Assembly (NCBI RefSeq): GCF_002797495.1
Contig: NZ_PGEZ01000001.1
Span: forward strand, 1,054,001-1,118,000
From: Mumia flava
GTDB lineage: Bacteria; Actinomycetota; Actinomycetes; Propionibacteriales; Nocardioidaceae
Length of the DNA stretch: 64,000 bases
Direction of reading: 5' to 3'
A model generated the notes under the pieces. That model made no database searches. It was not told the origin of the DNA and worked only from the letters and a program-made list of their open reading frames with translations. Below are positions 15,648 through 26,718 of this stretch, piece by piece. The translations under genes and the position numbers were made by a program. Every line of letters begins with the position of its first letter. Position 1 is the stretch's first letter.

Positions 15648-17012
15648 TCAGGTGCGCGCGGCCGTGCGGTCACGGGCGACGGCGAACCGCGCCAGCGCCT
15701 CGCGCCGCTCGGTGTCGTGGTCGACGATCGGCTCCGGGTAGTCGCTCGCCGCCTCGGGAACGCGCCACGGCTCGTGCACGCTCGCTCCCGGCAGGTCCCG
15801 CAGCTCCGGCACCCAGCGGCGGACGTACTCCCCGTCGGGGTCGAACCGTCGGCCCTGGAGCACGGGGTTGAAGACCCGGACGTACGGGGCCGCGTCCGTC
15901 CCGGTGCCGGCGACCCACTGCCAGCCGTGGTTGTTCGACGCGACGTCGCCGTCGAGCAGGAGGTCGAGGAAGTGGCGTGCGCCGTGGGGCCACCAGACGT
16001 GCAGGTCCTTGACCAGGAAGCTCGCGGTCACCATCCGGACCCGGTTGTGCATCCAGCCCTCGGCCCGCAGCTGTCGCATCCCGGCATCCACGAACGGGAA
16101 GCCCGTCCGCCCGGCCCGCCAGGCCTCCAGCGCGTCGCCGCCCTCCCCGACGTAGTCCAGCGGCAGGTCGTCGCGCAGGTCCGACCAGGCCGACCGCGGG
16201 TGGTGGTGGAGGACGTCGGCGTAGAACTCCCGCCAGGCGAGCTCGTCGGTGAACCGTCGCGTCGCCTCGGCAGCCCCGCCGCGCGAGACGTCGGCGAGGT
16301 CGGCGAGGAGCGTCCGGGGATGGATCTCGCCGTACTTCAGCGGGATCGACAGCCGGCTGGTCGTGTCCAGGTCCGGGCGGTCGCGCTGGTCGGCGTAGTC
16401 GGCGAGACGCTCGTCGCGGAACGCGTGCCACCGGCGCAGCGCCGCGCGCTCCCCCACCTCGCCGACGTCCGTCGACGGCCGAGGCAGCGGGTCGGACGCG
16501 AGCCCGCGCCGCCACCGGACCTTGCGCGGCGATGTCGCGGGCGCCGGCCACCCGTGCTCGCGCCACGCGCGGGCGTAGGCCGAGAAGACCCGCGCCGGGG
16601 TCCCCGCCTGCGTCGTGACCCGCCCGGGCCCGACGGCGTACGGCGAGCCGGTGACCACGAGGTCGCGGCTCTCGGCCCGAAGCGCGTCGCGCACGGCGTC
16701 GTCGCGGCGGCGGCCGTACGGTGTGGACTCCCCGGTGACGTGCACGTGCTCGGAGCCGACCTCTGCGGCCACCGCCGGCACCACCGTCGCGGGATCGCCC
16801 TCCCGGACGACCAGCGCGCCGCCGCAGGCGTCGCGCAGCGCTGCGACGGAGGCGAGCCACCGGTCGCGGCGTGCGGTCGGGCGAGCCAGCAGCCTCGGGT
16901 CGAGCACCACGAGCGCGACCACCTCGTCGGCCTCGTCGCGGGCCGCGAGCAGGGCCGGGTGGTCGGCGAGACGGAGGTCGCGCCGGAACCAGACCACGGA
17001 CGCGGACTTCAC
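15648..17012 (-). CDS. phrB: Class I CPD photolyase
   Basis: A 454-residue photolyase that uses light and FAD to split cyclobutane pyrimidine dimers. The N-terminal antenna domain starts SASVVWFRRDLRLADHPAL; the FAD domain carries TSRLSIPLKYGEIHP, GRTGFPFVDAGMRQLRAEGWMHNR, DLHVWWPHG and DVASNNHGWQWVAGTGTDA. These hold the FAD-binding and tryptophan electron-transfer residues. GTG at 17012 overlaps the stop of the upstream methyltransferase (GTGA), so it is the last gene of a four-gene operon read from the putative CarH-controlled promoter. Light induction would fit both its chemistry and its position. Confidence 0.94.
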   Translation of the reverse strand: MKSASVVWFRRDLRLADHPALLAARDEADEVVALVVLDPRLLARPTARRDRWLASVAALRDACGGALVVREGDPATVVPAVAAEVGSEHVHVTGESTPYGRRRDDAVRDALRAESRDLVVTGSPYAVGPGRVTTQAGTPARVFSAYARAWREHGWPAPATSPRKVRWRRGLASDPLPRPSTDVGEVGERAALRRWHAFRDERLADYADQRDRPDLDTTSRLSIPLKYGEIHPRTLLADLADVSRGGAAEATRRFTDELAWREFYADVLHHHPRSAWSDLRDDLPLDYVGEGGDALEAWRAGRTGFPFVDAGMRQLRAEGWMHNRVRMVTASFLVKDLHVWWPHGARHFLDLLLDGDVASNNHGWQWVAGTGTDAAPYVRVFNPVLQGRRFDPDGEYVRRWVPELRDLPGASVHEPWRVPEAASDYPEPIVDHDTERREALARFAVARDRTAART

Positions 17013-18265
17013 GCCGCCCGCTCGAGCCGGATCTGGGCGACGTCGAGGTAGCCGGCGGCGAACCCGGCCTCGCAGTACGCGAGGTAGAACTCCCACGTCC
17101 TCCGGAAGGCCTCGTCGAACCCCAGGTCACGGATGTGCGGCCAGGCCGCGGCGAAGCGGCTCCGCCACCGTCGCAGGGTCTCGGCGTAGTCCGGCCCGAA
17201 CGCGTGCACCTCGCTGACCCGCAGGCTGGTCGTGCCGAGCGCCCGGTCGATCGCCGGCAGCGACGGGATCAGCCCGCCGGGGAAGATGTGCTTCTGGATC
17301 CAGCCGAAGGAGTCGCGGGTCGCCACGAGCCGGTCGTCGTCCATCAGGATCGCCTGCACGACGACGCGGCCGCCGGGCGCGAGGCACCGGTCGAGGGTCT
17401 CGAAGTAGACCGGCCAGAACTCCTCGCCGACCGCCTCGATCATCTCGATCGAGACGATCGCGTCGTAGTGGCCCTCCGCGCTGCGGTAGTCCTCGACCCG
17501 TACGTCGACCCGGTCGGCGACGCCGGCGGCCTCGAACCGCTCGCGAGCCGCCGCGGCCTGCTCGACCGAGAGGGTGTGGGTGGTCACCGTCGCGCCGCGC
17601 TCCGCTGCGCGCAGCGCCAAGGAGCCCCACCCGGTGCCGATCTCGAGCACGCGCGTCCCGGCCCCGACCCCGGCACGGTCGAGCACCGCGTCCAGCTTGC
17701 GACGCTGCGCACCGGCGAGCGACTGGTCCGCGAGCGGGATCTCCCGGTCGAACAGCGCGCTGCTGTAGGTCATCGTGCTGTCGAGGAACGCGGCGAACAA
17801 CGCGTTGCTCAGGTCGTAGTGCGCCTCGATGTTGCGGCGGGCTCCCTCGGGCGTCCCCCGTTGCGCCCGAGGGAGCCGCCGATCGACCAGGCGGCGCAGC
17901 CGGCGCAGGGCCGGCGGGACCGCCGTGGTCACCCGCTCCGCGAACGGGAGCAGGGCGTCTGCGAGATCGGTGCCGTCGGCGACGCGCCAGTCGCCGGCCG
18001 TGTAGCCCTCACCGATCCCGATCTTGGGGTTGTCGGCGATCCGGTCGAACAGCGCGTCGGGGCGCACCAGCTCGATCTCGGGTCGCGCCGTCGCCGGGTC
18101 GTCGCGCCGGGAGCGTCCGAGCTCGGTCCCGTCCGGCATCCGCACGCGGACCGGCACCCGGCGCAGGGCTGCCGCGAGGACGGGCCTGGCCAGGCGGCGC
18201 CGCAGCCCGCCGCGCGTTACGACGGTGTGCGGGAGCTGCCGCGGGTCGTCGATCGTCGTCGTCAT
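17009..18265 (-). CDS. Cyclopropane-fatty-acid-synthase-like methyltransferase (first copy)
   Basis: A 418-residue SAM-dependent methyltransferase of the CFAS/mycolic acid cyclase family, acting on unsaturated acyl chains of phospholipids. The N-terminal lipid-binding domain contains GIGEGYTAGDW; the catalytic domain has NIEAHYDLSNALFAAFLDSTMTYSSALF, SAM loop VLEIGTGWG at residues 206-214, and SIEMIEAVGEEFWPVYF with FGWIQKHIFPGGLIPS. Product could be a cyclopropane, methyl or methylene group; the sequence alone does not say. ATG overlaps the DUF1365 stop (ATGA). The gene set COG2907-DUF1365-CFAS recurs in many bacteria next to photolyase. Confidence 0.92.
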   Translation of the reverse strand: MTTTIDDPRQLPHTVVTRGGLRRRLARPVLAAALRRVPVRVRMPDGTELGRSRRDDPATARPEIELVRPDALFDRIADNPKIGIGEGYTAGDWRVADGTDLADALLPFAERVTTAVPPALRRLRRLVDRRLPRAQRGTPEGARRNIEAHYDLSNALFAAFLDSTMTYSSALFDREIPLADQSLAGAQRRKLDAVLDRAGVGAGTRVLEIGTGWGSLALRAAERGATVTTHTLSVEQAAAARERFEAAGVADRVDVRVEDYRSAEGHYDAIVSIEMIEAVGEEFWPVYFETLDRCLAPGGRVVVQAILMDDDRLVATRDSFGWIQKHIFPGGLIPSLPAIDRALGTTSLRVSEVHAFGPDYAETLRRWRSRFAAAWPHIRDLGFDEAFRRTWEFYLAYCEAGFAAGYLDVAQIRLERAA

Positions 18266-19011
18266 GCTCGCTCCTCTCGGAAGGGTGCGGCGGTGCGCGC
18301 GTAGCGCGGCAGGCCCCGCGCCCACAGACGGACGCCGTGCCAGCGGATCAGCGCGCTCACCTGCCAGGTCCAGAACGGGCGCCGCACGGTCGTGCGGACG
18401 GCCGTGAGGGTGGTCGCCGGTACGGGGCGGCCGGCGACCCCGGCGACCAGGACCTCCTCGCCGTCGCGCCACAGCCGGATCTCGACGGCCACCGCGGTCG
18501 CGTCGAGCCGGACCCGGACCTGGTAGCGGCCGGCGGTGTCGTTGAACGGCGAGACGTAGAGGACCTTGTCGACCTCGGCCGCCCCCGCGTCGTCCGGCTC
18601 CACGACGTACGCGTGCCGTCCGCCGTAGGTGTTGTGGACCTCGAGCACGACCGCCCGCAGCGTCCCGTCGGCCCGCAGGCACCAGAACACGCTGAGCGGG
18701 TCGAACACGTGGCCGAGCCGTCGCGCGTGCGCGAGCATCAGCACCCGGTCGTCGGGTGCCGTCGCGATCCCCTGCCCGGCGAGCGCGTGCTCCACGCCCG
18801 CGCGCAGGCCGACCGCGGGGTCGCCGGCGAAGTGGTCGCGGTTGCGGAAGCGCGCGAGCAGCCGTACGCCGCGCGGCATCCGACCCAGCCGGTCGACGTC
18901 GACGAGCCACTGCTCGTGGTGGTGCGCGAACGCGTACGGCTGCGGCACCGTCCGTCGGTGCCACACCCGCCCGCGGACGACGGCCGGCAGCTCGAGGCCC
19001 CTCACGGTCAC
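18262..19011 (-). CDS. DUF1365 protein
   Basis: A 249-residue DUF1365 protein. Conserved segments are HRRTVPQPYAFAHHHEQWLVDVD, VLMLAHARRLGHVFDPLSVFWC, VLEVHNTYGGRHAYV and KVLYVSPFNDTAGRYQVR. The family is almost always encoded between a COG2907 flavoprotein and a CFAS-like methyltransferase, as here, and is thought to assist in modifying unsaturated fatty acids, but no activity is established. GTG at 19011 overlaps the upstream stop as GTGA; another GTG lies two codons in. Confidence 0.9.
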   Translation of the reverse strand: MTVRGLELPAVVRGRVWHRRTVPQPYAFAHHHEQWLVDVDRLGRMPRGVRLLARFRNRDHFAGDPAVGLRAGVEHALAGQGIATAPDDRVLMLAHARRLGHVFDPLSVFWCLRADGTLRAVVLEVHNTYGGRHAYVVEPDDAGAAEVDKVLYVSPFNDTAGRYQVRVRLDATAVAVEIRLWRDGEEVLVAGVAGRPVPATTLTAVRTTVRRPFWTWQVSALIRWHGVRLWARGLPRYARTAAPFREERA

Positions 19012-20282
19012 CAGGACCCCCCGAGCTGCTCGGCCGCCAGCACACCGGACCGGGCGCCGTCCTCGTGGAAGCCCCACCCCAGGTGCGCGCCGGCGAACGC
19101 CAGGCGCGGACCGCCGGCGGCGCGCAGCACCCCCGCTGCACGCACCGCCGCCGGTGTGAAGACGGGGTGGGCGTACTCCATGGCAGCGACCACGGAGTCA
19201 CGAGCGACGCGCCCGGCCGGGTTCAAGGTGACGACGAGGTCGTCGCCGTCGAGTCCCTGGAGGCGGTTCATCCAGTAGCTGACCAGCACCTGCGACTCCT
19301 GCCCGCCGCAGCGACGGAGCCGATGGTTCCAGCTGGCCCTCGCCCTCGGCGCGTCCGGCAGGACCGAGGTGTCGCGGTGCAGCCAGGTCGGGTTCACCGA
19401 GTACGTGATCGACGCGAGCGCGGTGTGCTCGGCGTCGTCGGCGTCGCTGAGGATCTTCAGGGCCTGGTCGGCGTGGACCGCCACCACGACCTGGTCGAAC
19501 CGGTGGCTCGCCTGGTCGGCGGTCCGGACCTCGACCCCGTCGTGGTGACGGGTGACCGCGGTGACCGGCGTCGCGGTCCGTACGTCACCGAGCCGCGCGG
19601 CGAGCGCGTCGACGTAGGTGCGCGAGCCTCCGACGACGGTCCGCCAGGTCGGTGACCCGGTGACGGTCAGCATGCCGTGGTGCTCGAGGAAGGCGAACAG
19701 GTGACGCGCCGGGTAGCCGAGCGCGTCCGCGTCGCCCGAGGACCAGACGCACGCGACGAGCGGCGTCGCGAAGTGCTGCACGAACGCGTCGCTGAAGCGC
19801 TCGCGGGCGAGGAACTGCCCCCAGGTCAGCTCCTCGTCCCCGTCGTCCGCGAGCACGGCGCGGGCCCGTCGGTGGAACCTCGGGACCTCGGCCAGCATCC
19901 GCACGAACCGTGGCTCGAGCACGCGGCGCGGCTGCGCCAGGATCCCGCCGGCGCCGCGTCCGCCGGCGTAGGACCATCCGCACTCGTCGCACGTGATGCT
20001 CATGGACATCTCCGTGGGGCGGGTCCGCACGCCGAGCTCGTCGACGAGCCGCAGGAAGTGCGGGTACGTGCGCTCGTTGTGCACGATGAAGCCGCTGTCC
20101 ACCTGCACCCGGCCGCCGGAGCCGTTGTCGACCGCATGCGTGTGGGCGTGCCCGCCGAGGCGGTCGTCGGCCTCGAAGAGCGTCACGCGGTGCGTCCGAC
20201 GCAGCACGTACGCAGCGGTCAGGCCGGAGACGCCGGCGCCGATCACGGCGACGCTCGGCGCGTCGGAGGTCTGGCTCGTCAT
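19008..20282 (-). CDS. COG2907 FAD-dependent amine-oxidase-like protein
   Basis: A 424-residue flavoprotein. The dinucleotide-binding motif is VAVIGAGVSGLTAAYVLRR followed by VTLFEADDRLGGHAHT; the C-terminal flavin-contact segment is LAFAGAHLGWGFHEDGARSG. COG2907 contains predicted NAD/FAD-binding proteins that accompany CFAS-like enzymes, and a related protein belongs to the singlet-oxygen response of Rhodobacter sphaeroides. A role in oxidising or desaturating a methylated acyl chain is plausible but inferred. It is the first gene of the minus-strand operon; the ATG follows GAGGGAC and the leader is about 80 nt. Confidence 0.9.
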   Translation of the reverse strand: MTSQTSDAPSVAVIGAGVSGLTAAYVLRRTHRVTLFEADDRLGGHAHTHAVDNGSGGRVQVDSGFIVHNERTYPHFLRLVDELGVRTRPTEMSMSITCDECGWSYAGGRGAGGILAQPRRVLEPRFVRMLAEVPRFHRRARAVLADDGDEELTWGQFLARERFSDAFVQHFATPLVACVWSSGDADALGYPARHLFAFLEHHGMLTVTGSPTWRTVVGGSRTYVDALAARLGDVRTATPVTAVTRHHDGVEVRTADQASHRFDQVVVAVHADQALKILSDADDAEHTALASITYSVNPTWLHRDTSVLPDAPRARASWNHRLRRCGGQESQVLVSYWMNRLQGLDGDDLVVTLNPAGRVARDSVVAAMEYAHPVFTPAAVRAAGVLRAAGGPRLAFAGAHLGWGFHEDGARSGVLAAEQLGGSW

Positions 20283-20367: not shown

Positions 20368-20396
20368 AGCGTATGGTTTGGTCCGGACTTTGTCAA
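20368..20396 (-). promoter_or_regulatory. Consensus promoter of the COG2907-DUF1365-CFAS-phrB operon
   Basis: On the minus strand TTGACA (20396-20391), a 17-nt spacer and TACGCT (20373-20368) form a near-consensus housekeeping promoter. Its -35 hexamer lies inside the direct-repeat operator, so a bound repressor would block polymerase. Confidence 0.7.
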
Positions 20397-20410
20397 AGGT
20401 TTGTCCAAGC
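20378..20410. promoter_or_regulatory. Putative CarH operator A: three 11-bp direct repeats
   Basis: Units TTGGTCCGGAC, TTTGTCAAAGG and TTTGTCCAAGC follow one another at an exact 11-bp period. The last two fit the CarH half-site pattern TGT-N2-A (reverse complement of T-N2-ACA) described for Thermus CarH. The site covers the -35 element of the leftward operon and lies 75 bp upstream of the photoreceptor gene. Confidence 0.7.
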
Positions 20411-20484
20411 ATAGGCACCCGGGCAAGGACCGCGCAGATCGCCGCGCGAACGACCTGGCATGCTGGCGGAGCGACGGAGGGCGG

Positions 20485-21456
20485 ATGTACACGATCAAGC
20501 ACGCGGCAGCGCTGGTCGGCGTTCCCGAGGCGACGCTGCGCGCCTGGGAGCGGCGCTACGGCGTCGTGTCGCCGCGGCGGTCGAGCGGTGGCTACCGCCT
20601 CTACAGCCCCGAGGACGTCGCCGCGCTTCGGCACATGCACGCCCTGGTCGGCGCAGGGTGGTCCGCCCGCCAGGCCGCCGACGCCGTCGCCTCGATCGCC
20701 TCCCCGGCCCGGGCCGCGCAGGACGGCGACCGCGCGGCGCCCACCGTCGGCGACGTCGTCCCGAGCCTCGCCGTGCCGGGGAGCGACGCGCTCGTCGAGG
20801 GGGGCGCGGCCCGCCCTCCGGGTGAGCAGCCGGAGGGGGGCGAGCTCGTCGACGCCGCCCGGTTCCTCGATGCTGCCGCCGCGTCGCAGGTCCTCGACTG
20901 GCACTTCGCCCGAGGCTCGTTCGAGCACGTCCTCGACGGCTGGCTGCTGCCGGAGCTGGAACGGGTGGGCCTCGCGTGGGAGGTCGGGGCGGTCACCGTC
21001 GCCGGCGAGCACCTCGTCGCCGGCGTTGTGCACCGGCGCCTCAGCGCCGCGTTCGACGCCGCAGGCGCCGAACCGCCGCCGTCCACCGAGCGTCCCCGTG
21101 TGCTGACCGGCCTGGCGCCCGGAGTCAGGCACGAGCTGGGGATGCTGGCCTTCGCGACCGCGGCGCGGCGACGCGGGTTCGACGTCGTCCACCTCGGCAG
21201 CGATCTTCCCGTCGGCGAGTGGCAGGCCGCCGCCCGCCACCACGGGGCCCGGGCCGCCGTGCTCGCGGTGCCGTCGCAGGACGACGTCGAGCCGACCCGC
21301 GAGGCGGCGCGCGCCCTCCGGGCCGCCGACGTGCCGGTCGTGGCGGTCGGAGGGCGGCACCAGGACCTGCTCGGCGAGGACGCCCTCCAGCTCGGCCACC
21401 GGATCGGGCCCGCACTCGACCGCCTGTCGGCGGCCGTGCGCGATCCGCGACGCTGA
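20485..21456 (+). CDS. CarH/LitR-type B12-dependent photoreceptor, MerR family
   Basis: A 323-residue repressor. An N-terminal MerR helix-turn-helix (YTIKHAAALVGVPEATLRAWERRYG, SGGYRLYSPEDV) is joined by a variable linker to a four-helix cap and a cobalamin-binding Rossmann domain. The cap contains the CarH signature W-x9-E-H (Trp165, Glu175, His176), which covers adenosyl-B12, and the Rossmann domain has RHELG with His216 at the lower axial ligand position. In characterised CarH proteins the dark AdoCbl tetramer represses and light breaks it apart. GGAGGG precedes the ATG. It sits between the two arms it would control, and both arms carry matching 11-bp repeats. Confidence 0.9.
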   Translation: MYTIKHAAALVGVPEATLRAWERRYGVVSPRRSSGGYRLYSPEDVAALRHMHALVGAGWSARQAADAVASIASPARAAQDGDRAAPTVGDVVPSLAVPGSDALVEGGAARPPGEQPEGGELVDAARFLDAAAASQVLDWHFARGSFEHVLDGWLLPELERVGLAWEVGAVTVAGEHLVAGVVHRRLSAAFDAAGAEPPPSTERPRVLTGLAPGVRHELGMLAFATAARRRGFDVVHLGSDLPVGEWQAAARHHGARAAVLAVPSQDDVEPTREAARALRAADVPVVAVGGRHQDLLGEDALQLGHRIGPALDRLSAAVRDPRR

Positions 21457-21462
21457 GCATCG

Positions 21463-21492
21463 TTCGACATTTGTCCAAGGTTTGTCTAGTCT
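21463..21492 (+). promoter_or_regulatory. Promoter of the DUF1295 operon
   Basis: TTCGAC (21463-21468) and TAGTCT (21487-21492) are 18 nt apart, 35 bp before the DUF1295 start codon. The operator repeats at 21470-21502 occupy the spacer and -10. Confidence 0.55.
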
Positions 21493-21502
21493 TGATCGAG
21501 GC
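21470..21502. promoter_or_regulatory. Putative CarH operator B: three 11-bp direct repeats
   Basis: Units TTTGTCCAAGG, TTTGTCTAGTC and TTGATCGAGGC repeat every 11 bp. The first two match the TGT-N2-A half-site and the first is nearly identical to the last unit of operator A. It starts 14 bp after the photoreceptor stop codon. Confidence 0.68.
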
Positions 21503-21527: not shown

Positions 21528-22340
21528 GTGACGTTCGAATGGACCGCCCTGCTGGTGGTGAGCGGCGCTTCGCTCGCCGCCGTCGTGGTCGTGATGGCCG
21601 CGACCGCGCTCGTGGCGCGACGCGTCGGACGTGTGTCGGTCGTCGACGTCGCCTGGGGGCTCGCGTTCGTCGCGGTCGCGATCGTCTGCCTGCCTCTGGC
21701 CCTCGTCTACGGCACCGCCGACCGCAGTCTGCTGCTCGCCGTCCTGGTCGCCGCGTGGGGCGTTCGGCTGGCTGTGCACATCGGGCGACGGGCCGGCGGC
21801 AAGGAGGATCCGCGCTACGAGAAGCTGCTCGCGAAGGCCCCGGGCGACCCGTACCTCTACGCGCTGCGCACCGTGTTCGCGCTCCAGGGCGCGCTGGTCT
21901 GGCTGATCTCGTTCCCGCTCCAGGTCACCGCGGTCTCCGGCGGATCGATCGACTGGGTCGCCGGCATCGGCGCAGCCCTGATCCTGGTCGGCATCGCCTT
22001 CGAGGCGATCGGGGACGCGCAGCTCGCCGCGTTCAAGGCCGACCCGGCCCACCGAGGGATGATCATGGACCGCGGCCTGTGGGCGTGGACCCGGCACCCG
22101 AACTACTTCGGTGACGCCTGCGTGTGGTGGGGCGTGTTCGTGGTCGCCGCCGCGCAGTGGCCCGGGGTGTTCACCGTCGTCTCGCCGCTGATCATGACCT
22201 ACCTGCTGGTCTGGGGCAGCGGCGCCCGGATGACCGAGCGCGTGATGGCCGACCGGCCCGGGTTCGCCGAGTACCGCGAGCGGACCAGCGGATTCTTCCC
22301 GCTCCCGCCCCGACGCTCTGCCACGGCGGTCGGCTCATGA
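21528..22340 (+). CDS. DUF1295 membrane protein (steroid 5-alpha-reductase-like)
   Basis: A 270-residue integral membrane protein with about six or seven spans. Family hallmarks are VDVAWGLAFV near the N-terminus, AAWGVRLAVHIGRRAGGKEDPRYEKL, GLWAWTRHPNYFGDACVWWG and the final GFAEYRERTSGFFPLPP. DUF1295 proteins share the NADPH-binding C-terminus of steroid and isoprenylcysteine modifying enzymes and often neighbour CFAS-like genes, suggesting a reduction step on a membrane lipid; this is inference. GTG follows GAGGAGG. It is the first gene of the rightward operon under operator B and overlaps the next gene by 4 nt. Confidence 0.88.
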   Translation: MTFEWTALLVVSGASLAAVVVVMAATALVARRVGRVSVVDVAWGLAFVAVAIVCLPLALVYGTADRSLLLAVLVAAWGVRLAVHIGRRAGGKEDPRYEKLLAKAPGDPYLYALRTVFALQGALVWLISFPLQVTAVSGGSIDWVAGIGAALILVGIAFEAIGDAQLAAFKADPAHRGMIMDRGLWAWTRHPNYFGDACVWWGVFVVAAAQWPGVFTVVSPLIMTYLLVWGSGARMTERVMADRPGFAEYRERTSGFFPLPPRRSATAVGS

Positions 22341-23746
22341 GCACGTACACGCACGTCACCCGCGTCGGCCACCGGCGCGACGAGGTCTTCGCCTGGCACG
22401 AGCGCCCGGGGGCCGTGACACGCCTCACGCCGCCGACCTTCGGCCGGGTCGAGCAGGAGCCCTCCGACGGGCTGCGGGACGGCTCCCGTGCCGTCCTGCG
22501 CATCAACGTCCCGGCGACGTCGGGACTTCTCCGGCTGCGCTGGGTGGCACGGCACCGCGGCTACCGGCCCCCGCACTCGTTCGAGGACGAGATGGAGTCG
22601 GGCCCTCTCGGGTCATGGCAGCACCGGCACACGCTGGCGGTCGCCGACCCCGACGGCATCACGGAGATCATCGACGAGATCGACGCCGCACCCCCGCTCG
22701 GGATCGGCGGTCTCCCCGGCCGGCTGTTCGACGCCACGCTGCACCGGCAGCTCGACCGGATGTTCTCCTACCGCGCGCGCCAGCTGCGTGCCGACCTCGA
22801 CTTCCATGCCCGGCGCCCCGCCCCGCGGACCATCGCGGTGTCCGGTGCCTCGGGAACCGTCGGACGCCAGCTCGTCGCCCTGCTCGGGGGCGGCGGCCAC
22901 CGGGTCCGCCGCCTCGTCCGTCGCCCGCCGCGCACGCCCGACGAGATCCGCTGGGACCCAGCACGCGGACGCGTGGACGCCGAGAAGCTGCGCGACGTCG
23001 ACGTCGTGATCCACCTCGCCGGCGAGCCGATCGGCGGCCGGTTCACCGAGTCGCACAAGCGGGCGGTCTACTTCAGCCGCGTGCGGTCCACCCGGCTGCT
23101 CGCGACCACGCTCGCGGACCTCGCCGACGACGGCCGAGCGCGCGCGCTGGTCAGCGCCTCGGCGGTCGGGTGGTACGGCCCCGACCGCGGCGACGAGATC
23201 CTGGACGAGGACGACGCGCCCGGGACCGGTTTCCTCGCCGACGTCTGCCGGTCGTGGGAGGACGCCTGCGCTCCGGCGCGCGACGCGGGAGTCCGCGTGG
23301 TCAACGTCCGGACCGGGCTCGTCCAGTCGGCCGCTGGGGGGCCGCTCGCGCTCCAGGCGCCGATCTTCGCGACCGGCCTGGGCGGCCCGCTCGGCGACGG
23401 CTCCCAGTGGCTCGGCTGGATCACGATCGACGACCTGGTCCGTCTGTACGGCCACGTCGCCCTGACCGACGGGCTGGACGGTCCCGTCAACGCGTGCGCG
23501 CCGGAGCCGGTCCGCGCCGAGGAGTACGCCCGGGTCCTCGGCCGCGTCCTGCACCGGCCGCACGCGCTGCGCGTGCCTGCGGCCGCGCCGGCGCTGCTGC
23601 TCGGTCGCGAGGGCGCGCACGAGCTCGCGCTCGCCGGCCAGCGCACGTCGGCCAAGCGTGCCCAGGAGTGGGGCGTCACCTTCGAGCATCCTGACCTGGC
23701 GAGCGGGCTGCGGCACGTCCTCGCCGCCGACCACGAGGAGAGCTGA
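22337..23746 (+). CDS. SRPBCC domain fused to TIGR01777 NAD-dependent epimerase
   Basis: A 469-residue two-domain protein. Residues 1 to about 155 form an SRPBCC/START-like lipid-binding domain (THVTRVGHRRDEVFAWHERPGA). From about 160 on there is a Rossmann epimerase of the YfcH/TIGR01777 group with nucleotide loop IAVSGASGTVGRQLV, VVIHLAGEPIGG, LVSASAVGWYG and a C-terminal DUF1731 segment containing LLLGREGAHELALAGQRTSAKRAQE. Such fusions accompany lipid or cell-division genes and have no proven substrate. Start ATGA overlap with DUF1295 and end overlap with the CFAS gene show one operon. Confidence 0.9.
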   Translation: MSTYTHVTRVGHRRDEVFAWHERPGAVTRLTPPTFGRVEQEPSDGLRDGSRAVLRINVPATSGLLRLRWVARHRGYRPPHSFEDEMESGPLGSWQHRHTLAVADPDGITEIIDEIDAAPPLGIGGLPGRLFDATLHRQLDRMFSYRARQLRADLDFHARRPAPRTIAVSGASGTVGRQLVALLGGGGHRVRRLVRRPPRTPDEIRWDPARGRVDAEKLRDVDVVIHLAGEPIGGRFTESHKRAVYFSRVRSTRLLATTLADLADDGRARALVSASAVGWYGPDRGDEILDEDDAPGTGFLADVCRSWEDACAPARDAGVRVVNVRTGLVQSAAGGPLALQAPIFATGLGGPLGDGSQWLGWITIDDLVRLYGHVALTDGLDGPVNACAPEPVRAEEYARVLGRVLHRPHALRVPAAAPALLLGREGAHELALAGQRTSAKRAQEWGVTFEHPDLASGLRHVLAADHEES

Positions 23747-25023
23747 TGACCGGAGTCGCACCGCGGCTGGCCGACGCGCTGGAGCCCGTGCTGGGCGGAC
23801 CGCTCCCCGTGCGCCTGACGGCCTGGGACGGCAGCAGCGCCGGCCCGGCGGACGCCCCGCACGTCCGTCTGCTGGACCGCGCCGCGCTGCGCCGGCTGAT
23901 CTGGCGGCCGGGCGAGCTCGGTGCGGCCCAGGCGTACGTCCGCGGCGAGATCGACGTCGACGGCCGCCTGGACGACGCCCTGCGTCACGCGTGGTCCGTC
24001 GTCGGCGAGCGCGGCCTGAGCGCGCGCCGACCCCCCGTACGCCACCTGGCGCGCGCGGCGACGGTGGCGATCCGCGAGGGCGCCTTCGGGCCGCCGCCGC
24101 CCGCGCCGCCCAGCCAGGTCCGGGTCCGCGGTCGCCTCCACTCGAGGACTCGCGACCGCGACGTGATCCGGCAGCACTACGACCTGACCACGGACTTCTA
24201 CGCCCTGATCCTCGACGATCGGATGACCTACTCGAGCGCGTACGTGACCCACGGCGACCTCGGCGGCGAGGAGAGCGCGGCGTACTCGCTCGCCGACGCC
24301 CAGCGCGACAAGCTCGACCTCGTGTGCCGCAAGGTCGGCCTCGACCGAGGAGGACGCAGGCTGCTCGACGTCGGCTGCGGGTGGGGCGCGCTCAGCCTGT
24401 ACGCCGCGCAGACCTACGGTGCCCGCGTGACCGGCGTGACGATCTCCGCGGAGCAGCACGCCTACGTCACCGAGCGGGCCCGCCGGCTCGGCCTCGAGGA
24501 CCGGGTCGAGATCCGGCTTCAGGACTACCGTGACGTCGACGACGGCCCGTACGACGCGGTGGCGTCGCTGGAGATGGGTGAGCACGCGGGCGACGCCGGC
24601 TATCCCGCCTACGTCGAGACGCTGCGCCGCAACGTCGCCGAGGACGGCCGTGTCCTGGTCCAGCAGATGAGCCGCCCGCGCGGCAAGCACCCGGGCGGGG
24701 GCCCGTTCATCGAGTCGTTCATCGCGCCCGACATGACGATGCGCCCGCTCGCGGACACCGTCGCCCTGATCGAGGCGGGCGGGCTGGACGTCGTCGACAC
24801 CGAGGAGATGGGGCTGCACTACGCCTGGACGGTCCGCGCCTGGCAGCGGCGATTCGAGGCGAACCGGGACGCGATCCGCCGGCTGGTCGGGGACGAGGTC
24901 GTCCGGGTGTGGGAGCTGTACCTCGCCGGCGGCCTGCTGACCTTCGAGCAGGGTCGGATGGGGGTCGACCAGATCGTCGCCCGGCGCCGCGGTGCCCGGA
25001 GCCAGCCCGGCACCTCGTCCTGA
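23746..25023 (+). CDS. Cyclopropane-fatty-acid-synthase-like methyltransferase (second copy)
   Basis: A 425-residue CFAS-family enzyme. The N-terminal domain begins PVRLTAWDGS and contains RRLIWRPGELGAAQAYVRGE; the catalytic part has VIRQHYDLTTDFYALILDDRMTYSSAYV, SAM loop LLDVGCGWG (206-214) and SLEMGEHAG. It has the same length class and the same motif spacing as the copy at 17009, but different N-terminus, so the two are paralogues rather than a recent duplicate. It resembles the actinobacterial UfaA1/BfaB group that methylates oleoyl chains toward tuberculostearic acid; that assignment is tentative. The ATG shares one base with the upstream stop. Confidence 0.92.
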   Translation: MTGVAPRLADALEPVLGGPLPVRLTAWDGSSAGPADAPHVRLLDRAALRRLIWRPGELGAAQAYVRGEIDVDGRLDDALRHAWSVVGERGLSARRPPVRHLARAATVAIREGAFGPPPPAPPSQVRVRGRLHSRTRDRDVIRQHYDLTTDFYALILDDRMTYSSAYVTHGDLGGEESAAYSLADAQRDKLDLVCRKVGLDRGGRRLLDVGCGWGALSLYAAQTYGARVTGVTISAEQHAYVTERARRLGLEDRVEIRLQDYRDVDDGPYDAVASLEMGEHAGDAGYPAYVETLRRNVAEDGRVLVQQMSRPRGKHPGGGPFIESFIAPDMTMRPLADTVALIEAGGLDVVDTEEMGLHYAWTVRAWQRRFEANRDAIRRLVGDEVVRVWELYLAGGLLTFEQGRMGVDQIVARRRGARSQPGTSS

Positions 25024-25113: not shown

Positions 25114-26718
25114 GTGGTCGCGACGACGACACGGTCCTGGTGGGGCTGGGGAGTTCAGGAGCAGGCACTCGACGCCGAGGAGGTCTCGGCGCTCGAACGC
25201 CGGGTCGCGACGCTCGCGGCCGGCCACGACCTCACCGCGCACGAGCCGCCGACCCCGTCCGACGAGCTGCTGCCCCCGGTCCGGGTGACGCCGCCGGGCT
25301 CGCTCGAGGCGCTGTGCACCAGCGACCCTCGCGAGCGTGCCGCGCACACCCACGGCAAGGCGTTCCGCGACGTCGTGCGCAACCTGCGCGGCGACCTGCG
25401 CAACGCACCGGACCTGGTCGCCCGTCCGCGCTCGGAGCGCGACGTGGTCGAGCTCCTCGACTGGTGCTCGACCGCCGGTCTCGCGGCGATCCCCTACGGC
25501 GGCGGGAGCTCGGTCGTCGGCGGGGTCGAGCCGCGGTTCGACGACGACCTCGCCGGCGCCGTCTCGATCGACCTGACCGGGATGGACCAGGTGCTCGAGG
25601 TGGATCGGACGAGCAGGGCGGCCCGGATCCAGGCGGGTGTCCTCGGGCCGAGCCTCGAGGCGCAGCTGCGGCCGTACGACCTGACCCTGCGGCACTTCCC
25701 GCAGTCGTTCGAGTTCTCCAGCCTCGGCGGCTGGCTCGCGACGCGCGCGGGCGGCCACTTCGCGACGGTGCGGACCCACATCGACGACTTCACCCAGGCG
25801 ATGCGGGTCGTCACGCCGACCGGCGTCGTGCAGAGCAGGCGGCTGCCGGGGTCGGGGGCCGGGCCGTCCCCCGACCGGCTCTTCCTGGGTTCCGAGGGAG
25901 CGCTCGGCGTCGTCACGGAGGCGTGGATGCGGCTGCAACGGCGTCCCACCCATCGCGCCGGCGCCTCGGTGCGGTTCACCGACTTCGACCGTGCGGTCGC
26001 GGCCGTACGGGAGATCGCGCAGTCCTGGCTCGACCCGGCGAACTGCCGGCTGCTCGACGCCGCCGAGGCGTACCTCAACGCGGGGACCTCCGTGTCGGGA
26101 GGCGTGCTCGTCCTGGGCTTCGAGTCGGCCGACCACCCGGTCGACGACGCGTTGCGTCGCGCGGTCGAGATCGGGCTGGCGCACGGCGGGACGCACGCGC
26201 CGCCGGACGTCGCGGCCGGCGCGGGATCGCGCGACGCGCCGGCCGACGCGTGGCGCACGGCCTTCCTGCGGATGCCGTACCTGCGCGACGCGCTGGCCCA
26301 GCGCTCGGTGATCGCGGAGACGTTCGAGACCGCGACCACCTGGCAGGCCTTCCCTGCCCTGCACGCGGCAGTCACGCTGGCGGCGACCGAGGCGCTCCGC
26401 TCGATCTGCGGCGCCGGGGTCGTGACGTGCCGGTTCACCCACGTCTATCCCGACGGGCCGGCGCCCTACTACGGCGTGTACGCGCCGGGTCGGTGGGACG
26501 GGCTGGTCGCGCAGTGGGACGAGATCAAGGCCGCCGTGAGCGAGGCGATCCTCACGCACGGGGGCACGATCACCCACCACCACGCCGTGGGCCGCGACCA
26601 CCGCCCGTGGTACGACCGGCAGCGCCCCGACCCGTACGCCGCGGCGCTGCGTGGCGCGAAGTCAGCCCTCGACCCGGCGGGAGTCCTCAACCCGGGCGTG
26701 CTGGTCGACCGGGCCTGA
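25114..26718 (+). CDS. FAD-linked oxidase, alkylglycerone-phosphate-synthase-like
   Basis: A 534-residue VAO-fold flavoprotein. The FAD domain contains RPRSERDVVELLDWC, AAIPYGGGSSVVGGVE, HFPQSFEFSSLGGWLATRAGGH and LGSEGALGVVTEAWMRLQ; the C-terminus has GTITHHHAVGRDHRPWY, the histidine triplet and loop typical of the AGPS group, and the N-terminus has the usual WWGWG. AGPS makes ether lipids in eukaryotes; actinobacterial homologues (for example Rv2251) are uncharacterised. Proximity to the second CFAS suggests a flavin-dependent step on the same lipid, which is inference. GTG at 25114 follows AAGGAG. Confidence 0.9.
   Translation: MVATTTRSWWGWGVQEQALDAEEVSALERRVATLAAGHDLTAHEPPTPSDELLPPVRVTPPGSLEALCTSDPRERAAHTHGKAFRDVVRNLRGDLRNAPDLVARPRSERDVVELLDWCSTAGLAAIPYGGGSSVVGGVEPRFDDDLAGAVSIDLTGMDQVLEVDRTSRAARIQAGVLGPSLEAQLRPYDLTLRHFPQSFEFSSLGGWLATRAGGHFATVRTHIDDFTQAMRVVTPTGVVQSRRLPGSGAGPSPDRLFLGSEGALGVVTEAWMRLQRRPTHRAGASVRFTDFDRAVAAVREIAQSWLDPANCRLLDAAEAYLNAGTSVSGGVLVLGFESADHPVDDALRRAVEIGLAHGGTHAPPDVAAGAGSRDAPADAWRTAFLRMPYLRDALAQRSVIAETFETATTWQAFPALHAAVTLAATEALRSICGAGVVTCRFTHVYPDGPAPYYGVYAPGRWDGLVAQWDEIKAAVSEAILTHGGTITHHHAVGRDHRPWYDRQRPDPYAAALRGAKSALDPAGVLNPGVLVDRA

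Follow-up and report, generated by a model that had tools for sequence, protein, structure and literature searches.

Genes, promoters and repeat arrays at the locus

The window, the whole 64,000-nucleotide stretch of Mumia flava DNA that we analyzed (contig 1, 1,054,001-1,118,000), carries a gene for a 323-residue CarH/LitR-type MerR–B12 regulator (20485..21456, plus strand) between two candidate operators built of 11-bp repeats, operator A (20378..20410, minus strand) and operator B (21470..21502, minus strand). The leftward arm, encoded on the minus strand, begins with an FAD-dependent amine-oxidase-like protein (19008..20282) and continues with a DUF1365 protein (18262..19077, start codon not fixed), a CFA-synthase-family methyltransferase (17009..18271), and, as its last gene, a DNA photolyase (15648..17096, start codon not fixed). 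The rightward arm, on the plus strand, encodes a DUF1295 protein (21528..22340) as its first gene, then a TIGR01777 epimerase/DUF1731 protein (22337..23746), a second CFA-synthase-family methyltransferase (23746..25023), and an FAD-linked oxidase with FAD_binding_4 and FAD-oxidase_C domains (25114..26718). Among proteins of the furan fatty acid pathway, UfaO contains DUF1365, UfaD has an NAD-FAD-binding domain of a kind related to phytoene desaturases, and the SAM-dependent fatty acyl methylase is UfaM (PMC7380195). Judged by their sequences, the leftward-arm proteins match the ufaD, ufaO, and ufaM products in kind, and we refer to the amine-oxidase-like, DUF1365, and methyltransferase proteins as putatively UfaD-like, UfaO-like, and UfaM-like, respectively.

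Both arrays have an exact 11-bp period when read from the sequence. Operator A comprises one degenerate unit (20378-20388, TTGGTCCGGAC) followed by two good ones (20389-20399, TTTGTCAAAGG; 20400-20410, TTTGTCCAAGC), and operator B two good units (21470-21480, TTTGTCCAAGG; 21481-21491, TTTGTCTAGTC) followed by a degenerate one (21492-21502, TTGATCGAGGC). Thus, of an earlier sequence-only reading, which had proposed three 11-bp units per operator, the period stands, but the unit count becomes two good units and one degenerate unit in each. A core common to all units, also proposed there, did not hold up: against the 10 fixed bases of TTTGTCNAAGG, the units score 5, 10, and 9 in operator A and 10, 7, and 6 in operator B, and the full core is present in only 2 of the 6. 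Both good units of each operator do fit TGT-N2-A, as that reading had stated, and the window contains no TGT-N2-A-N5-TGT-N2-A pairs other than those of operators A and B. The complementary T-N2-ACA half-site lies on the minus strand in both arrays and hence runs along the leftward promoter at operator A and against the rightward promoter at operator B.

We also considered whether these sites could be dimer sites, palindromic and of MerR or TGTACA type, instead of direct repeats. The second unit of operator A (CTTTGTCAAAG) is near-palindromic and matches on the minus strand too, CTTGTACAAG of relatives is likewise near-palindromic, and class II LitR binds TGTACA-N12-TGTACA (PMC9758184). Here and across the family, however, the units are co-oriented at an exact 11-bp step and have an asymmetric AAGG end, and their spacing is unlike that of class II sites, which makes dimer sites very improbable and favors direct repeats.

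The predicted leftward promoter (20368..20396, minus strand) has a perfect −35 element, TTGACA (20396-20391), a 17-bp spacer, and the −10 element TACGCT (20373-20368), and operator A contains the TTGACA, as had been claimed. The predicted rightward promoter (21464..21492, plus strand) consists of TCGACA (21464-21469), a 17-bp spacer, and TAGTCT (21487-21492), placing operator B over its spacer and −10 element, again in agreement with the earlier claim. A strict sigma-70 scan called neither promoter; both assignments therefore rest on position and, for the leftward promoter, on conservation as well. For the regulator gene itself, neither the strict scan nor reading of the sequence gave a convincing sigma-70 promoter candidate. 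The regulator's own promoter, probably sharing the operator A region, is nevertheless a third expected target, so the claim that the array occurs at the only two promoters expected is right about the promoters of both arms and wrong about "only two."

The regulator and its light-response residues

The regulator exceeds the cut-offs for PF13411, PF02607, and PF02310, and thus has a MerR DNA-binding domain and both B12-binding subdomains. It matches the Thermus CarH structures 3whp and 5c8d with E values of about 1e-27, and in an alignment its DNA-binding helix and wing are close to those of CarH_Tt. The light-response signature, comprising the motifs GxxW, EH, GxxH, and GxxxP (PMC11796333), is complete in the form of GLAW, EH, GVRH, and GSDLP. 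The Wx9EH motif and the lower-axial histidine are present as W165, E175, H176, and H216, which are kept in nearly all aligned homologues. The regulator scores 118.8 bits against the NCBIfam CarH equivalog NF052513, for which the cut-off is 400, and for this reason we call it CarH/LitR-type rather than a CarH equivalog. The genome also encodes a cobalamin adenosyltransferase. Another MerR-like protein, somewhat similar to the regulator, was set aside, as it has neither the EH nor the axial-His motif.

The bis-His light state of Thermus CarH involves His132. The corresponding position of the regulator, directly after W165, is Glu166, and homologues of the regulator have Glu, Ala, or Lys there. 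In Thermus CarH, His132 is important for tetramer disassembly, and the H132A variant remains mostly tetrameric even after light (PMC10442372). This glutamate lends some weight to a reading in which the regulator binds operators A and B but is no longer released by photolysis and instead takes its cue from a partner protein or some other signal. The example of class II LitR, which works with a LOV protein in governing phrB and ufaM-type genes (PMC9758184), points the same way. The regulator, however, retains both B12 subdomains and the full light-response signature, whereas class II proteins have only the helix bundle. Moreover, the His132 position varies among other light-responsive proteins and is not defining, and CtMerR and photocobilins retain a light response without His132 (PMC11796333). 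We therefore regard loss of the light switch as unlikely and favor a regulator that is released by light.

Occurrence of the tandem array in the genome and across the family

In the 4.4-Mb genome, exact matches to TTTGTC-N5-TTTGTC occur at operators A and B alone, compared to 0.022 expected from base composition, and the sole one-mismatch match genome-wide is the first unit pair of operator A. This result bears out the earlier judgment that chance is an unlikely source of the twin arrays. The single 10-mer has five copies in the genome, three of them in the window, and the count of 11-mers with two or fewer mismatches in the window equals the shuffle mean. Because the single unit is near background and the tandem is rare, the signal is carried by the tandem. 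Background frequency of the motif across the genome had been named in advance as the observation that would overturn the operator assignment; the single unit comes close to it, but the tandem array does not.

A looser genome scan with TGT-N2-A-N5-TGT-N2-A returned 10 matches compared to 6 for a reversed control, and we therefore claim no further regulon member. Two of these matches (C1:1147210 and C1:2988747) were inspected as possible members, and nothing convincing was found. Separately, a stretch of less than 700 bases on another contig (C2, 409836-410506) holds three weak motif matches.

Among 342 genomes of the family, the strict array pattern had 17 matches and its reversed control had none. 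Of these 17, 13, counting the window's own, are no more than 1.5 kb away from a regulator homologue (43-48% identical outside the window), and an amine-oxidase gene also adjoins most of these 13 arrays; the other four matches adjoin other genes. Across 396 genomes sampled from the phylum, strict matches besides the window's own numbered three, no more than the six given by the reversed control. An origin of the arrays by chance, as AT-rich intergenic repeats, would accord with the near-background frequency of the single unit and with the 9/11 identity between units, which is common to other period-11 pairs in the window. The uniqueness of the tandem in the genome and the linkage of array and regulator across the family contradict this explanation, which we consider extremely improbable, and argue for operators.

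Loci chosen by the array pattern are conserved by construction, and thus a set chosen by protein homology provides the fair test. Upstream of protein-chosen regulator homologues, 22 of 33 regions hold a unit pair scoring at least 15 of 20, a score reached in 0 of 33 coding controls and in 0.15% of shuffles. At 28 homologous amine-oxidase loci without an adjoining regulator, its absence being judged from match positions, the best pair scores 14 and none reaches 15; at the other amine-oxidase locus, which scores 15 (L134), the regulator does adjoin. A search for arrays like operator B at 29 further DUF1295 loci of the family, chosen by DUF1295 and not by regulator absence, found no pair that reaches 14. 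Operator B was found in the window's genome only, and it thus has no comparative support of its own.

The register of operator A and its overlap with the promoter recur in relatives, whose linked arrays have TTGACA inside a unit and then TAnnnT at 17-18 bp. Most relatives have a good unit in the promoter spacer and a degenerate unit upstream of the −35 unit, and the window has the reverse; this swap of good and degenerate units fits a three-unit register.

Several arrays in the family have other surroundings. Two similar arrays (TTCGTCCAAGG TTTGTCCAAGG; near position 1500 of L075 and L076) have no regulator homologue within 1.5 kb, and the one in L075 is placed where a sigma-factor-like reading frame starts. 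Two further arrays, near position 1500 of L069 and L080, stand beside unrelated frames that we named by eye as a fasciclin-like lipoprotein (L069) and a DNA-polymerase-like protein (L080). Several genomes of the family (L038/L054, L039/L053, L041/L052, L042/L058, L043/L055, L044/L056, and L046/L057) carry two MerR–B12 homologues separated by 1-2 kb, and TTTGTCCA-type repeats are found close to one or both. In L059 (7536-7961), an SRPBCC-like frame, also named by eye, separates the array from the regulator gene and follows the array by ~13 bp, so that this rightward promoter, too, may be covered; the window has no SRPBCC-like gene in this place.

Relation to known systems and proposed light control

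The CarH operators described in the literature consist of 11-bp nnnnTnnACAn repeats in tandem over the −35 or −10 element, and those that mix full and degenerate repeats are still bound (PMC9304148). Operators A and B resemble those of Thermus thermophilus, Bacillus megaterium, and Myxococcales in having 11-bp direct repeats with T-N2-ACA, and in mixing full with degenerate repeats, here two full repeats and one degenerate unit in each; operator A shares with known CarH operators a −35 element within one repeat, and operator B shares with the B. megaterium operator an overlap with the −10 element (PMC9304148). The assignment of both arrays as CarH-type operators by the sequence-only reading is thus well founded, given the tandem period with T-N2-ACA, the TTGACA within a repeat, the CarH-like regulator between the arrays, and the family-wide linkage of array and regulator. 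Classic CarH systems have carotenoid targets. At this locus, by contrast, two separate operators flank the regulator gene, the putative targets are genes for lipid modification and photolyase, and no match to SQS_PSY (phytoene synthase) was found in the genome at E 0.001. The operator type is already known; what is unusual is the target set, in a host where this entry enzyme of the carotenoid pathway was not found.

The targets have a closer parallel in Pseudomonas, where class II LitR, also a MerR-type repressor, acts with short LOV proteins and where its phrB and ufaM-type targets are light-inducible (PMC9758184). Class II LitR, however, has only the four-helix-bundle part of the B12 region, depends on a LOV partner, and uses TGTACA-N12-TGTACA sites (PMC9758184); the present regulator has both B12 subdomains and its sites are spaced at 11 bp, placing it outside that class. 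As with ufaM, ufaD, and ufaO of Rhodobacter and Rhodopseudomonas, genes for an FAD-binding desaturase-like protein, a DUF1365 protein, and a CFA-family methyltransferase lie together here, but a CarH-type regulator adjoins them, unlike the R. sphaeroides ufa genes, which were studied in a chrR mutant background (PMC7380195).

We conclude with considerable confidence that operators A and B belong to the class I-like CarH/LitR repressor whose gene they flank, and that this repressor most likely occupies them in the dark and leaves them in light. Operator A is strongly supported by comparison with relatives. Operator B is probable, given its resemblance to operator A and given that the genome has no further exact tandem of this kind. 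Following the CarH model of dark repression by the AdoCbl-bound protein and release by light (PMC9304148, PMC8156234), a regulator oligomer carrying adenosylcobalamin would sit on the tandem 11-bp repeats in the dark, with one DNA-binding domain per repeat. At operator A it would block the −35 element and spacer of the leftward promoter, and at operator B the spacer and −10 element of the rightward promoter, in both cases excluding RNA polymerase; the overlap of the operators with these elements fits repression. Light would break the Co–C bond, the oligomer would lose its grip, and both arms would be expressed, yielding a furan-fatty-acid-type lipid-modification operon with photolyase from the leftward arm and the products of further lipid-modification genes from the rightward arm. 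Operator A would probably affect the regulator's own promoter as well. What the analysis shows is the arrays, the promoter-like sequences that they overlap, the regulator's homology, and the family-wide linkage of arrays and regulator; we infer binding, cofactor, light response, and chemical product at this locus. By our analysis light very probably turns on genes for membrane-lipid modification and DNA repair through operators A and B.

A broader and more tentative proposal, which we hold to be possible but short of likely, concerns photoprotection in an actinobacterium that lacks the carotenoid pathway: a B12-dependent light repressor that does without the bis-His switch of His132 would act on paired operators to control photolyase and membrane lipid modification of the furan-fatty-acid type. 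For CarH/LitR-type repressors of Nocardioidaceae, the analysis offers a precise pair of operators and a consensus that spans the family, and it would connect a B12 light sensor with lipid modification and DNA repair rather than with carotenoids. In actinobacteria, a further use of the operators and regulator might be as an expression switch driven by green light.

One congener has no regulator match; its amine-oxidase, DUF1365, CFA-family (two), and DUF1295 genes are arranged as a single co-directional run. A MarR-like frame, recognized by eye (L163:1972-2481), precedes the amine-oxidase run in this congener and is reminiscent of CrtR, a MarR-type light regulator of Corynebacterium (PMC6739363).
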